Below, piece by piece: positions 40,917 to 44,134 of a stretch of DNA of 58,304 nt. The notes beneath the pieces were generated by a model. It searched no databases. It had not been told where the DNA came from and was given only the letters and a program-made list of their open reading frames with translations. The stretch is from Betaproteobacteria bacterium. GTDB lineage: Bacteria > Pseudomonadota > Gammaproteobacteria > Burkholderiales > Casimicrobiaceae. Each line of letters opens with the position of its first letter. Positions within the stretch are counted from its first letter, which is position 1. The translations under genes and the position numbers were made by a program. The stretch covers positions 35,376-93,679 of the forward strand of contig JAPUER010000083.1 of NCBI GenBank assembly GCA_027492485.1. The letters are read 5' to 3'.

Positions 40917-43391
40917 CTAGAAAGGCGCGTCGTGCTGGTCATCCGGCGGCGGCGCGAAATTGGCGTTGAAGTCGAACGGGATGTCGTCCAAGTCGTCTTC
41001 GAAGCGAATGCGCGCGTCATCCCCTCTCCCTTGAGGGGAGAGGGGCAGGGGAGAGGGTGACGGTGGCGAGGCGAAAGAAGGTTGTTCGTTTGCAACCGCC
41101 CCCCTCTCCCCTGCCCCTCCCCCACTGGGGGGGAGGGGTTCATTCACGGCATGCCATATTGCATCCAGAACACCAGCGCGGTTTTCCGACCATTCGTTGT
41201 TCCAGACGCGAATGACGCGAAACCCTTCCCGCTTGAGGAACTGATCGCGCTCATGATCGTAGTTCACACTTTCCGAATGCTGTGAGCCGTCGAGTTCAAT
41301 GACAACTGATTTGGAGAGCGCCACAAAGTCCACGATGTAGCGGCCAATCGGCTGCTGTCGTTTGAATTTCACGTCGGCGAAGCGATGAGCACGCAGCTCC
41401 TGCCAGAGTTCCTGCTCCCACGGCGTCTGATTGGCGCGCAGTTCGCGTGCGAAGTCGCGCAGGCGTTGCTCCGAGTGCTCCCCTCTCCCTTGAGGGGAGA
41501 TGGGGAGGGGAGAGGGTGACGGTGGCGAGGCGAAAGAAGGTTGTTCGTTTGCAACCGCCCCCCTCTCCCCAACCCCTCCCCCACCCGGGGGGAGGGGCAT
41601 AGAACCACCCCTCCTGACGCCCAGCGCCAGAATGCCGACGCCCTGCAGGTTCTGCGGCACGGCGATCGCCTGCGCCGTGGGAAACAGTCGGCCTGACTCG
41701 ATCTGCGTGCGCAGTTCGCGCAATTCGGCTTCCGCTTCCTCGTCGCTGATTGAGGCATCGACTTCGGCGTCGCGGTCCATGATCAGCCGCGACACGTCGC
41801 CGGCAAACTCGGTCTCGCGAAATTGTTCCAGCAGGGCGCCCATGTTCGGCTCGTCCGGGAAGCGGATGGCGACGCCCACGACCGCCTGTAGCAGGCGCAG
41901 CACCTGCGGCGCATTGGCCGGATCGGGGAACTGCATGTCGACCAGATACATCGCAAGCTTGGGTCGGCCGAGAATGCGCCGCGCGCTGGCCAGCACGCGC
42001 TGCGCGGCGGGGTCGTTTCGCGGCATCGGCGGCCGGCGCGACACGTAGCGGGTTCGTGTGCGGGTCGCGTCGTCGCCGCCGTCGCCGTAGCTGGCGGCGG
42101 TCTCGGCCGGCTTCGCCTTCACCGGCGGCAACAGCGTGTGCGATGCGATATCGACGTCGCCCTCCAGTACCTTGGCCAGCGATTCACGCAGCATCGGTGC
42201 GCTGACCAGCTCCAGGTGCACACGTGCGGCGGCGGCGCGTGCCGCCTTGGCTTCGGCGCTGTCGCCCGGATGCCGTTTGTTCAGCTCCTCGATCCAGTAC
42301 CGCGACAACGGCAGCGCGTCGGCGACATACGCCTCGAACGCCTCGCGCCCGTGCTCGCGCACGTAGCTGTCCGGGTCGTGTTCCTCGGGCAAGAACAGGA
42401 AGCGAATCTGCTTGCCGTCGCGCAACGCCGGCAGCGCGTTCTCCAGCGCGCGCCAGGCGGCGCGTTGCCCGGCAGCGTCGCCGTCGAAGCTGAACACCAC
42501 TTCGTCGGCCAGCCGCAGCAGACGCTGCACATGCGCTTCGGTGGTCGCGGTGCCGAGCGTGGCGACGACGTATTCGACGCCGTACTGCACCAGCGCCACC
42601 ACATCCATGTAGCCCTCGACCACCAGCACGCGATTGACCTTGCGAATCGCGCCCTGCGCCTGGAACAGGCCGTAAAGTTCGCGGCCCTTGCTGAAGATAG
42701 GCGTCTCCGGCGAGTTCAGGTATTTCGGCCCATTGCCGTCATCCTTGCTGCCGAGAATGCGGCCGCCGAACGCAATCACCGCGCCCTGCTGGTTCAGGAT
42801 CGGGAACATCACCCGCTCGCGAAAGCGATCGTAGCGCTTGCCGGCGTCGCCGGTGGCGACCAGCCCGGCGGTCTCCAGCAATTGATTGTCGGCATAGTCG
42901 GCGAACGCCTCGGCCAGCGGCTGCCAGCCCGCGGGCGCCCAGCCGAGATGAAAACGGCGTGCCACTTCGCCGCTGACGCCACGCTTCCTGAAATACTCGA
43001 TGGCGATCGGCGAGTTTTTTAGCTGCTGCTTGTAAAACCCGGCGGCGGTGAGCATGACGTCGAACAGCCCGCCAGCCTGCGGATCGGCCGGCCGGGCGTT
43101 GTCGTGCGGGACGCTGAGGCCGACGTTCTGCGCCAGTTCTTCCACCGCATCGGGGAAGCTCTTGCCGCCGTACTCCATCAGGAAGGTGATCGCCGAGCCA
43201 TGCGCCCCGCAGCCAAAGCAGTGATAGAACTGCTTGGTCGCGCTGACCGTGAACGAGGGTGACTTTTCCTTGTGGAAGGGGCAACAGGCCTGATAGTTCT
43301 GCCCGGCCTTTTTCAGCGGCACGTAGCGGTCGATCACCTCGACCACGTCGACGCGGGACAGAAGCTGGGCGATGAAGTCGTTCGGGATCAC
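40917..43391 (-). CDS. dnaG: DNA primase with in-frame DUF559 insertion
   Basis: 824 residues against about 580-660 for most DnaG. The CHC2 zinc finger has C37, H40, C58 and C61. The TOPRIM core includes GRILGSKDDGNGPKYLNSPET, VEGYMDVVALVQYGV and FSFDGDAAGQ. Residues about 598-791 are foreign: a proline/glycine-rich repeat, a DUF559 domain (about 640-745) and a second copy of the repeat, all in frame. A 33-residue tail (DDARIRFEDDLDDIPFDF...) follows. The start is a GTG at 43391 fitting the usual VIPNDFIAQLL. The primase parts look intact, so it is probably active; the insertion falls in the DnaB-contacting C-terminal region or just after it. Confidence 0.93.
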   Translation of the reverse strand: MIPNDFIAQLLSRVDVVEVIDRYVPLKKAGQNYQACCPFHKEKSPSFTVSATKQFYHCFGCGAHGSAITFLMEYGGKSFPDAVEELAQNVGLSVPHDNARPADPQAGGLFDVMLTAAGFYKQQLKNSPIAIEYFRKRGVSGEVARRFHLGWAPAGWQPLAEAFADYADNQLLETAGLVATGDAGKRYDRFRERVMFPILNQQGAVIAFGGRILGSKDDGNGPKYLNSPETPIFSKGRELYGLFQAQGAIRKVNRVLVVEGYMDVVALVQYGVEYVVATLGTATTEAHVQRLLRLADEVVFSFDGDAAGQRAAWRALENALPALRDGKQIRFLFLPEEHDPDSYVREHGREAFEAYVADALPLSRYWIEELNKRHPGDSAEAKAARAAAARVHLELVSAPMLRESLAKVLEGDVDIASHTLLPPVKAKPAETAASYGDGGDDATRTRTRYVSRRPPMPRNDPAAQRVLASARRILGRPKLAMYLVDMQFPDPANAPQVLRLLQAVVGVAIRFPDEPNMGALLEQFRETEFAGDVSRLIMDRDAEVDASISDEEAEAELRELRTQIESGRLFPTAQAIAVPQNLQGVGILALGVRRGGSMPLPPGGGGVGERGAVANEQPSFASPPSPSPLPISPQGRGEHSEQRLRDFARELRANQTPWEQELWQELRAHRFADVKFKRQQPIGRYIVDFVALSKSVVIELDGSQHSESVNYDHERDQFLKREGFRVIRVWNNEWSENRAGVLDAIWHAVNEPLPPSGGGAGERGAVANEQPSFASPPSPSPLPLSPQGRGDDARIRFEDDLDDIPFDFNANFAPPPDDQHDAPF
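41020..41139. repeat. Direct repeat flanking the DUF559 insertion, copy 1
   Basis: About 120 bp, CCCTCTCCC and GGGGAGAGGG rich, with an internal GGTGGCGAGGCGAAAGAAGG then TTGTTCGTTTGCAACC block identical to copy 2. It encodes the second P/G-rich segment of the DnaG chain. The GC-rich ends are inverted repeats of each other. Confidence 0.9.
41140..41478 (-). other. DUF559 endonuclease-like domain inserted in dnaG
   Basis: In frame within dnaG. The domain reads TPWEQELWQELRAHRF, FKRQQPIGRYIVDFVAL, VVIELDGSQHSESV and FRVIRVWNNEWSENR, the DUF559 (Vsr/PD-(D/E)XK-like) fold. The D of IVDF and the E and D of ELDGSQH match the catalytic set. This domain is usually a free-standing protein; here it is fused inside a primase and flanked by direct repeats. 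Confidence 0.85.
41479..41599. repeat. Direct repeat flanking the DUF559 insertion, copy 2
   Basis: Near-identical to copy 1 and in the same orientation, about 340 bp apart. It encodes the first P/G-rich segment (PPGGGGVGERGAVANEQPS) of the inserted block. The two copies differ by a few bases in the GC-rich arms. Confidence 0.9.
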
Positions 43392-43573
43392 AGCGGTATT
43401 ATCCCGCGTCGCCGAACGGCGAAAGCGAAACCGCGTCTGCGCCGCCGCATGGTCGGGGCTCGGGGGTTGCCGCCGCGGGGCGCTTGCGTAGCGGGCACGC
43501 TGCGCTGAAAATCGTAGCCGCCGATCGGCGCTGCGGACCCGCGCCGGTGGTGTGGAGGCGAGAACTGACAAAC

Positions 43574-44134
43574 ATGGCACTCATCGATTTTTTTCGTCGT
43601 CGGTACGTTGCGGTTCCCCGAGTGGAAGAACCTGCGACGGATGCGGCGAAAGGGCGAGCCGACCGATCGGCGGAGCGGCGTCGACGACCGCGCCCGCCGG
43701 TGCCCGCCGGAACGACCATCCTCATCGTCGATGACTCGAAGACGATGGTGGCCGCCCTCGGCCACATGCTGCGCGAAAACGGCTTCGACATTCTTGAAGC
43801 GCTCGACGGCGAATCGGCGCTCGAAATTCTGCGCAAGAACAAGCCGGACATGATCTTTCTCGATATCGTGTTGCCCGGCATTACCGGCTTCGATGTGCTG
43901 CGCCGCATCCGGCGCTCGCAGTACGTCGGCAAGGTGCCGATCGTGATGATGAGCGGCAACGAGGCCGCCACCGAGGAGTACTACGTCAAACGGATCGGCG
44001 CCGACGAGTTCATGAGCAAGCCCTGCACGCGCGCCGCCGTGTTCTCGCGCGTCGAGCGCCTGCTCGACCTGGGGCCGAAAGCGCTCGACGACAGCGACGC
44101 CGCAACCGGCGGGCCAATGGTGGCGGGCGATTGA
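43574..44134 (+). CDS. Single-domain response regulator (CheY/PilG-like)
   Basis: 186 residues. After an arginine/proline-rich N-terminus of about 45 residues comes a receiver domain with acidic pair D53-D54, phosphoacceptor D97 (MIFLDIVLPG), S127 (VPIVMMSGNE) and K149 (FMSKP). No output domain follows. It resembles twitching-motility or chemotaxis single-receiver regulators, but the N-terminal extension is unusual and might localise it. It is divergent from dnaG. Confidence 0.85.
   Translation: MALIDFFRRRYVAVPRVEEPATDAAKGRADRSAERRRRPRPPVPAGTTILIVDDSKTMVAALGHMLRENGFDILEALDGESALEILRKNKPDMIFLDIVLPGITGFDVLRRIRRSQYVGKVPIVMMSGNEAATEEYYVKRIGADEFMSKPCTRAAVFSRVERLLDLGPKALDDSDAATGGPMVAGD

Follow-up and report, generated by a model that had tools for sequence, protein, structure and literature searches.

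Why does the gene of the DNA primase, dnaG, carry an intact nuclease domain between two near-identical repeats, and what kind of unit has entered its reading frame? The question is raised by a stretch of 58,304 nucleotides (hereafter the window) from contig JAPUER010000083.1 of a Betaproteobacteria bacterium (assembly GCA_027492485.1), where a unit of 585 bp (195 codons; positions 41013-41597), composed of a repeat, a DUF559 domain and a second repeat, lies in frame near the 3' end of dnaG. We consider it probable, at roughly 70%, that this insert represents a mobile element of minimal size, about 0.5 kb, i.e. a single gene for a nuclease resembling Vsr and I-Bth0305I (DUF559), enclosed by inverted hairpin arms. 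The observation is more general than a first-pass annotation of the same DNA could show, as matching arms accompany DUF559 in many phyla, and the same kind of insert interrupts several other genes.

The association provides an enzyme candidate for a common class of hairpin repeats that is also present in E. coli (at ycjD), and it could explain the occurrence of such repeats in many genomes. If the reading is correct, a nuclease family still called 'unknown' would acquire a function, and a mobile element would survive inside conserved genes (dnaG, lipB, mnmG) by keeping the frame. We found no statement of a link between DUF559 and hairpins in the open-access literature, most of which was screened at the level of listings.

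Anatomy of the insert

The open reading frame of dnaG as listed comprises 887 codons (40917-43580, minus strand). The curated dnaG model TIGR01391 matches it at 9.1e-136, beginning only from residue 65, and for that reason the start of DnaG probably lies later than listed; the real protein would then be shorter than the frame, with the first 60-odd residues falling outside it. The Zn-ribbon, catalytic and Toprim domains of the primase are all matched in the frame by Pfam, and the DnaB-binding domain yields a weak match (residues 536-624) below the cut-off. Judged from these matches, the insert occupies the linker that joins the weakly matched DnaB-binding domain to an acidic C-terminal tail (..DDLDDIPF...DAPF; 40917-41012, minus strand), so placed that the primase core lies upstream and the tail continues in frame behind it; a similar tail is found in relatives that are free of the insert. 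We take this tail to resemble the C-terminal tail of the SSB type, which would explain the need for inserts to be in frame.

In the coding direction the insert opens with a hairpin dimer (dimer 1; 41472-41597), continues with the DUF559 domain (41145-41465, minus strand; residues 706-812) and closes with a second hairpin dimer (dimer 2; 41013-41138), both dimers being translated in frame. The two repeats, of 126 bp each, are 93% identical in an ungapped alignment (95% over 119 bp) and their starts are 459 bp apart, a multiple of three. Each is an inverted pair of hairpins with C/T stems: dimer 1 holds an outer hairpin at 41573-41597, which in the coding direction forms the left arm of the element, and an inner one at 41478-41499, and dimer 2 holds an inner hairpin at 41114-41138 and an outer one at 41021-41045, which forms the right arm. 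As read from the sequence, a third tract, consisting of purines, follows the pyrimidine-stemmed hairpin in all four arms, and these four arms are the only strict hairpins (i.e. with a perfect C/T stem of at least 8) in the window. Folded as DNA, dimer 2 adopts the order hairpin, long stem, hairpin (z = -6.6).

The first-pass annotation had described a DUF559 domain lying in frame between near-identical translated repeats, with the primase core and the nuclease residues kept, and had seen in it a mobile unit that uses a coding gene and lacks self-splicing motifs. These points are borne out by the anatomy given above, by the five invariant residues described below, and, as regards mobility, by a patchy presence and by like insertions in other genes. 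No intein family, i.e. no self-splicing Hint domain, occurs among the nine Pfam matches of the 887-residue frame, and we rejected an intein on that ground; Y1_Tnp is likewise absent from the Pfam matches of this frame.

The embedded nuclease

The match to DUF559 (PF04480) has an E-value of 1.6e-37 and a score of 128 bits, against a gathering cut-off of 20.6. Five residues (D46, E57, D59, H63 and D70 in domain numbering) are invariant in 36 aligned DUF559 sequences, including that of the window. With a structure model of the domain (pLDDT 90.8) as query, Foldseek returned N. gonorrhoeae NGO0050 (3hrl; E-value 6.8e-7) as the best match, followed in order by I-Bth0305I (3r3p; 3e-5), mitoribosomal proteins and a restriction enzyme, and Vsr (1cw0; 0.018); a sequence profile search also finds 3hrl and 3r3p (4e-4 for the latter). 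Judging by the model, the domain is a predicted PD-(D/E)XK nuclease of the DUF559/YcjD type with a Vsr-like fold, in which the candidate active-site residues are kept. YcjD itself already figured in 2005 among the PD-(D/E)XK members, with Vsr as a profile match (PMC1189080), and a DUF559 protein of Caulobacter, VsrA, was reported to provoke the SOS response in cells without a DNA methyltransferase and was proposed to be Vsr-like (PMC12907096).

The ratio of nonsynonymous to synonymous substitutions (dN/dS) of the embedded domain is 0.06-0.07 for the window genome (G000) compared with G005 and with G001, dS being near saturation in these pairs and saturated in a third. The estimate is rough, but the sequences clearly point to purifying selection on the domain within dnaG. 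An identity as defence gene was rejected: PADLOC gives no match for the DUF559 domain alone, and NCBIfam returns only 'DUF559 domain-containing protein', below its cut-off, next to a weak match to antiphage_ProA far below cut-off.

A dispersed hairpin family and its recent copies

The 126-bp unit has 52 BLAST matches in the 4.1-Mb genome of the window, some of them representing both strands of one place, and the same genome has 31 occurrences of a simplified hairpin pattern (CCCTCTCCC-loop-GGGAGAGGG) versus 0 of the reversed control. The repeats are members of a dispersed genomic family and not private to the dnaG locus. The genome has four DUF559 genes. In three of them the left arm matches the right one, the arm family differing from gene to gene, and the fourth (L004) has G/C-rich repeats nearby and a flank score of 14, which lies at the control level. 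Rfam contains no family that matches the repeat at gathering score; the matches listed are nearly all to miRNA families and look like composition artefacts, and an identity as RNA family was rejected.

Copying of the unit is apparent in genome G071, where two copies are 98.3% identical over 534 bp and a third is about 91% identical. The copies are flanked by 8-bp duplications, namely TGCAGATT twice (exact), TTTGTAAC twice (exact) and TTTTTAAC/TTTGTAAC (7/8). The full arm together with an extra terminal repeat is confined to the ends of the three copies; three more matches consist of the hairpin part alone. Both terminal inverted repeats and a target-site duplication, by which insertion sequences and miniature inverted-repeat transposable elements (MITEs) are recognised, are thus present for the three copies, and DUF559 is the sole recognisable gene of the unit of about 0.5 kb, with no known recombinase gene inside. 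By eye, the copies (L173, L238 and L239) seem to sit inside other palindromic repeats, which suggests a preference for palindromes as target. The pair L101/L146 was also considered as a recent jump and was rejected, since the similarity extends past the element.

Association of DUF559 with matching arms

The association was quantified by a flank test, in which the 500 bp to the left of DUF559 were aligned with the 500 bp to its right and compared with equally spaced windows elsewhere in the fetched loci. These controls numbered 1002, all from the longer loci (the short loci of the genus yielded none), and the sample of the class had 347 of its own. Within the genus, 17 of 20 loci score above the 95% control level and 13 above the 99% level, with four weak or partial matches (L075, L079, L082 and L083) omitted. 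Among loci from many phyla, found by similarity to the window domain, the corresponding numbers are 56 and 31 of 74 (6 of the 80 wide loci were unusable, and two loci are common to both sets). In the case of the class, the domains were found by the Pfam model and the loci fetched were the stronger matches (30 loci and 40 regions, one place twice); matching flanks are present for 57 of 70 DUF559 domains at the 95% level, where 5% is expected (2 of 72 domains lay too near to contig ends, and one locus, L179 = L274, is counted twice). The loci of Neisseria and Sinorhizobium, taken from a plasmid collection, pass the test with scores of 73 and 65.5. As an aside, two records of that collection, L275 (NZ_CP141089, E. 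coli, 4.9 Mb) and L276 (NZ_CP119142, N. gonorrhoeae, 2.2 Mb), are of chromosome size and are filed as plasmids.

The hairpins themselves are concentrated directly next to the nuclease. Over 169 non-duplicate loci (L084, L085 and L179 were left out as duplicates, here and in the DUF559 tree) their density is 4.85 per kb up to 100 bp from DUF559, 2.1 at 100-200 bp, 0.43 at 200-400 bp and 0.056 at 400-800 bp, with 0.05-0.09 per kb beyond, i.e. a drop of about 87-fold from the first 100 bp. A third purine tract accompanies 140 of the 163 hairpins within 100 bp of DUF559 in these loci, and within 200 bp it lies on the side toward DUF559 in 151 hairpins versus away from it in 53. The Vsr genes of the same class sample, which share the fold, served as control: in 24 usable loci there is neither a hairpin within 300 bp nor a flank match (6 of 30 loci were dropped for unexpected length), as compared with 51 of 62 DUF559 domains that are positive by each of the two measures (p 3e-13).

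At the level of whole genomes, the hairpin pattern occurs in 43 of 51 class genomes with a strong DUF559 match (E-value up to 1e-19) versus 29 of 177 without one (odds ratio 27, p 3e-19); these 228 genomes were drawn from more than 180 families, without the window genome, and the statistics ignore relatedness. Genomes with only weak DUF559-like matches resemble the background in this respect (4 of 25 carry the hairpin). The arms moreover differ between loci. In 15 hand-picked genomes with at least two DUF559 loci, each represented by a subset of its DUF559 genes, the left-right arm score has a median of 32.5 when both arms belong to one locus (n=40) and of 12 when they come from different loci of a genome (n=72; p 1e-11); the G071 copies were not compared with one another. 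Each DUF559 locus thus tends to have arms of its own, as one would expect of enzymes that each recognise the ends of their own element.

History of the dnaG copy

A comparison of dnaG within the genus places DUF559 at the same position in three genomes (G000, G001 and G005), and no insert is present in the dnaG of eight others that could be read (G004, G006, G007, G008, G009, G010, G011 and G012). This survey leaves out G002 (uncertain linker), G014 (contig end), G016 (short tail), G003 (fragment) and G013 (no match). A further genome, G015, holds in its dnaG, in frame, the outer left arm, a stretch like the N-terminus of DUF559 and the right arm; this looks like an internal in-frame deletion of the element and not like a single repeat left behind, and thereby like a natural example of how solo dimers may originate.

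The first-pass annotation took the repeats for simple direct repeats, from which the domain could be released by recombination that leaves one copy. The near-identity of the pair stands, but its members are dimers of the dispersed hairpin family, and release of this type was not seen. Because the repeat belongs to that family and the reduced relative G015 keeps both outer arms, we rejected private pop-out repeats as the main story of the locus.

On the DUF559 tree the three dnaG-borne domains form one clade (100/90), to which free-standing DUF559 genes of the genus are adjacent. In the tree of dnaG, G005 is the partner of G000 (94/90) and G015 that of G001, a partial row (100/99). Since the carriers do not form one group, the trees suggest either that the insert was gained once and lost several times or that it was gained twice at the same site. 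Between G000 and G005 the DUF559 domains are 85% identical and the adjoining dnaG codons 444-590 are 47% identical, which points to separate histories of the module and its dnaG neighbourhood in this pair. The dnaG copy of the element is old. The DnaG region beside the insert in G005 (L043) stands out in itself, being 47% identical to that of G000 as compared with 67-80% in nine other genomes of the genus, as if it had been exchanged.

In-frame insertions in other genes

DUF559 with translated repeats also interrupts lipB (G004, G006 and G011), hyuB (G004 and G013) and mnmG (G002 and G007), and furthermore bioF (G245), hsdS (G081, G175 and G187), hsdM (G120 and G175) and a DNA methylase gene (G175). 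The host families are supported by Pfam in the ten frames that were scanned (bioF as aminotransferase only), and the LplA/B catalytic, hydantoinase B and aminotransferase domains are each matched in two stretches of the interrupted frames. Other long frames (hsdR, selD and another methylase) show no clear matching arms or weak scores. Among the 11 genomes of the genus searched for each gene, 9 have an uninterrupted lipB site (G000, G001, G002, G003, G005, G007, G008, G009 and G010) and 9 an uninterrupted hyuB site (G000, G001, G002, G003, G005, G006, G008, G009 and G010), the junctions of both being too diverged for a target duplication to be read. At the hyuB site of G007, where G004 and G013 hold DUF559, there is an insert that consists of hairpins only (L221), a second candidate for a reduced element.

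According to the DUF559 tree the insertions in hsdM and in hsdS have at least two origins each; for lipB the data suggest two independent origins, which the tree does not force. The three insertions in hsdS share a linker and differ in codon, as judged by eye. Restriction-modification genes (hsdS, hsdM and the DNA methylase gene; L245, L246, L249, L252 and L274) recur as in-frame hosts, and the hsdM genes of G120 and G175 (L245 and L249) seem by eye to contain an extra translated hairpin insert further upstream, ahead of the conserved ..LFIDARN.. motif. Twelve of the 19 DUF559 sequences labelled with a host gene fall in one moderately supported clade (90/87) of 19 rows, which may represent a lineage specialised for entering genes.

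Proposed mechanism and its alternatives

The element that we envisage has arms in which a C/T-stemmed hairpin is followed by a purine-rich third tract, directed inward, in a layout like that of the BoxC, PIT or triplex motif. The DUF559 nuclease would read the structure of its cognate arm, which may be presented as a cruciform or as a folded single strand, would itself cut at the arms and at a target, and would in this way move the element, a copy being installed by repair or strand transfer. The copies that survive would be those in intergenic DNA and those that enter a tolerant protein linker in frame, and the dnaG copy would be kept as a translated domain under selection. The scattered hairpin dimers of the genome would in turn be non-autonomous, deleted derivatives, related to the element as MITEs are to insertion sequences and REPs to RAYT genes, with G015 as the one natural example.

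Several observations weigh against this proposal. Mobility driven by DUF559, including the cleavage, is something that we infer. In the window itself, one flanking unit is largely a direct copy of the other (direct score 101, inverted score 17), so that the two make no clean inverted pair, and a target duplication is unreadable because the relatives are too diverged. The G071 copies bear their extra terminal repeat outside the hairpins, and it is possible that an unrelated transposase acts on them in trans. As regards the association, the 99% level of the class sample, driven up to 70 by a few repeat-rich control windows, is passed by just 8 of the 70 domains; strict hairpins occur on both sides within 200 bp at 77 of 159 loci and on at least one side at 108; and 8 of the 51 genomes with DUF559 are without this hairpin pattern. 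Conversely, there are genomes rich in the hairpin in which no DUF559 was found (G132 with 71 copies, G086 with 56, G084 with 36 and G121 with 29), which means that solo copies persist, or arise, without it. Finally, two of the four named records from the plasmid collection, E. coli ycjD and Azospirillum, fail the flank test, with ycjD scoring 12 direct and 9 inverted and having no matching arm on the other side.

The first alternative is homing without ends, in which DUF559, as a homing endonuclease, cuts the empty allele of a host gene, repair then installing a copy of it there; the arms would be targets or by-products and not substrates. The relation of DUF559 to I-Bth0305I in fold and profile is in line with this, as are the repeated hits on the same linkers (hsdM and hsdS, for each of which the tree requires two origins, lipB, hit in three species, and hyuB, hit in two) and the better conservation of DUF559 than of the adjacent dnaG between G000 and G005. 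Nevertheless we deem it unlikely: most of the tested loci, intergenic ones among them, have matching arms, the arm family tending to differ from one DUF559 to the next; the G071 copies are located at different sites of one genome with short target duplications; and the three hsdS insertions, as seen by eye, lie in one linker and not at one codon.

A slightly less probable, and likewise unlikely, alternative holds that another process (a RAYT, a DDE transposase or replication slippage) moves the dimers, and that DUF559 was captured between two of them as cargo or as a helper. It would account for the two complete dimers around the DUF559 of the window, for the hairpin-rich genomes that have no DUF559 and for the extra terminal repeat in G071. 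It does not lead one to expect that arms match locus by locus at DUF559 in many phyla, that the 0.5-kb unit of G071 has no other gene, that the embedded domain is under purifying selection, or that DUF559 and hairpin are associated at genome level.

That DnaG has gained a nuclease or repair domain for replication, comparable to mismatch repair of the Vsr type, with the repeats being incidental, we regard as very improbable. Strong purifying selection on the embedded domain would fit such a domesticated fusion, and so would the role in DNA damage of the Caulobacter VsrA (PMC12907096). The insert is missing, however, from the eight dnaG genes of the genus that were read, with only arms in G015, and the same module occurs in lipB, bioF, mnmG and other genes that share no common function. 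An artefact of assembly or frameshift, conceivable for a genome in 83 contigs with 126-bp repeats, is highly unlikely, as DUF559 lies at the same place of dnaG in the separate assemblies G001 and G005, the latter being listed as a single contig.

Relation to known elements

In terms of organisation, the mobile element proposed here is analogous to the RAYT/REP system, with an unrelated enzyme. It shares with REP, BIME and REPIN-RAYT the inverted hairpin pairs, a partner enzyme gene flanked by them, and solo and intragenic copies throughout the genome (PMC3733652). The RAYT (TnpA-REP) is a tyrosine (HUH) transposase, whereas the enzyme here is a Vsr-like PD-(D/E)XK protein, and the GTAG/CGTC tags of REP are no regular feature of the window arms: by eye, a CGTC near 41016 precedes one outer hairpin and none precedes the matching inner hairpin at 41478. 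Neither a regular tag nor an HUH (Y1) transposase, the two marks of REP/RAYT, is found at this locus. The homing endonuclease I-Bth0305I (3r3p) and Vsr have the same fold as the DUF559 domain of the window; 3r3p was deposited as a mobile intron protein, whereas DUF559 here has hairpin ends, no intron or intein being seen. The inverted ends, the short target duplications (in G071) and an internally deleted derivative (in G015) are reminiscent of MITEs and minimal insertion sequences, from which the G071 unit differs in that its only gene is DUF559 and not a known recombinase gene. We know of no Rickettsia palindromic element (RPE) that carries a gene. In contrast to the RPEs, the in-frame insert here bears an intact nuclease. 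RPEs are similar to it in being palindromic elements located in frame in protein genes (PMC3733652).

The arms themselves resemble the intrastrand triplex motif (also BoxC, PIT or TM) described by Holder et al. in 2015, i.e. a G/C-rich hairpin with a third purine tract that occurs singly or as inverted pairs and was reported in more than 260 genomes (PMC4666352). Inverted pairs are present in E. coli, where hairpins of the BoxC type have been known since the 1990s (PMC4666352). The window arms likewise consist of a pyrimidine-stem hairpin followed by a purine tract. In E. coli MG1655 the motif was reported to be always intergenic, with no mobility genes found around the E. coli sites in that report (PMC4666352), whereas the hairpins described here bracket a nuclease gene and are translated inside genes. 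An assignment to the same family would depend on the layout and on the hairpins beside ycjD.

Given this resemblance, we tentatively suggest that DUF559 could be the mobility enzyme of a previously unrecognised, widespread group of minimal elements with hairpin ends of the triplex type, of which the BoxC/PIT repeats of E. coli and many other bacteria would be non-autonomous copies and E. coli YcjD a surviving enzyme, and some lineages of which would be specialised in entering protein genes in frame, where they would be translated as domains and require no splicing. We put this wider proposal at slightly less than an even chance, having lowered it from even because the ycjD locus fails the flank test. 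In E. coli, ycjD lies between sapF and fabI and is followed by two imperfect hairpins of the BoxC type, as recognised by eye. Two genomes without ycjD were considered as a clean empty site and rejected, since they carry an efflux operon after sapF and no target duplication is readable; the operon at this position is the eef operon (PMC12817139). Among 5426 E. coli genomes, 3362 match a query of 2309 bp spanning ycjD over at least 80% of the query, the median number of matching places in a genome being 4.

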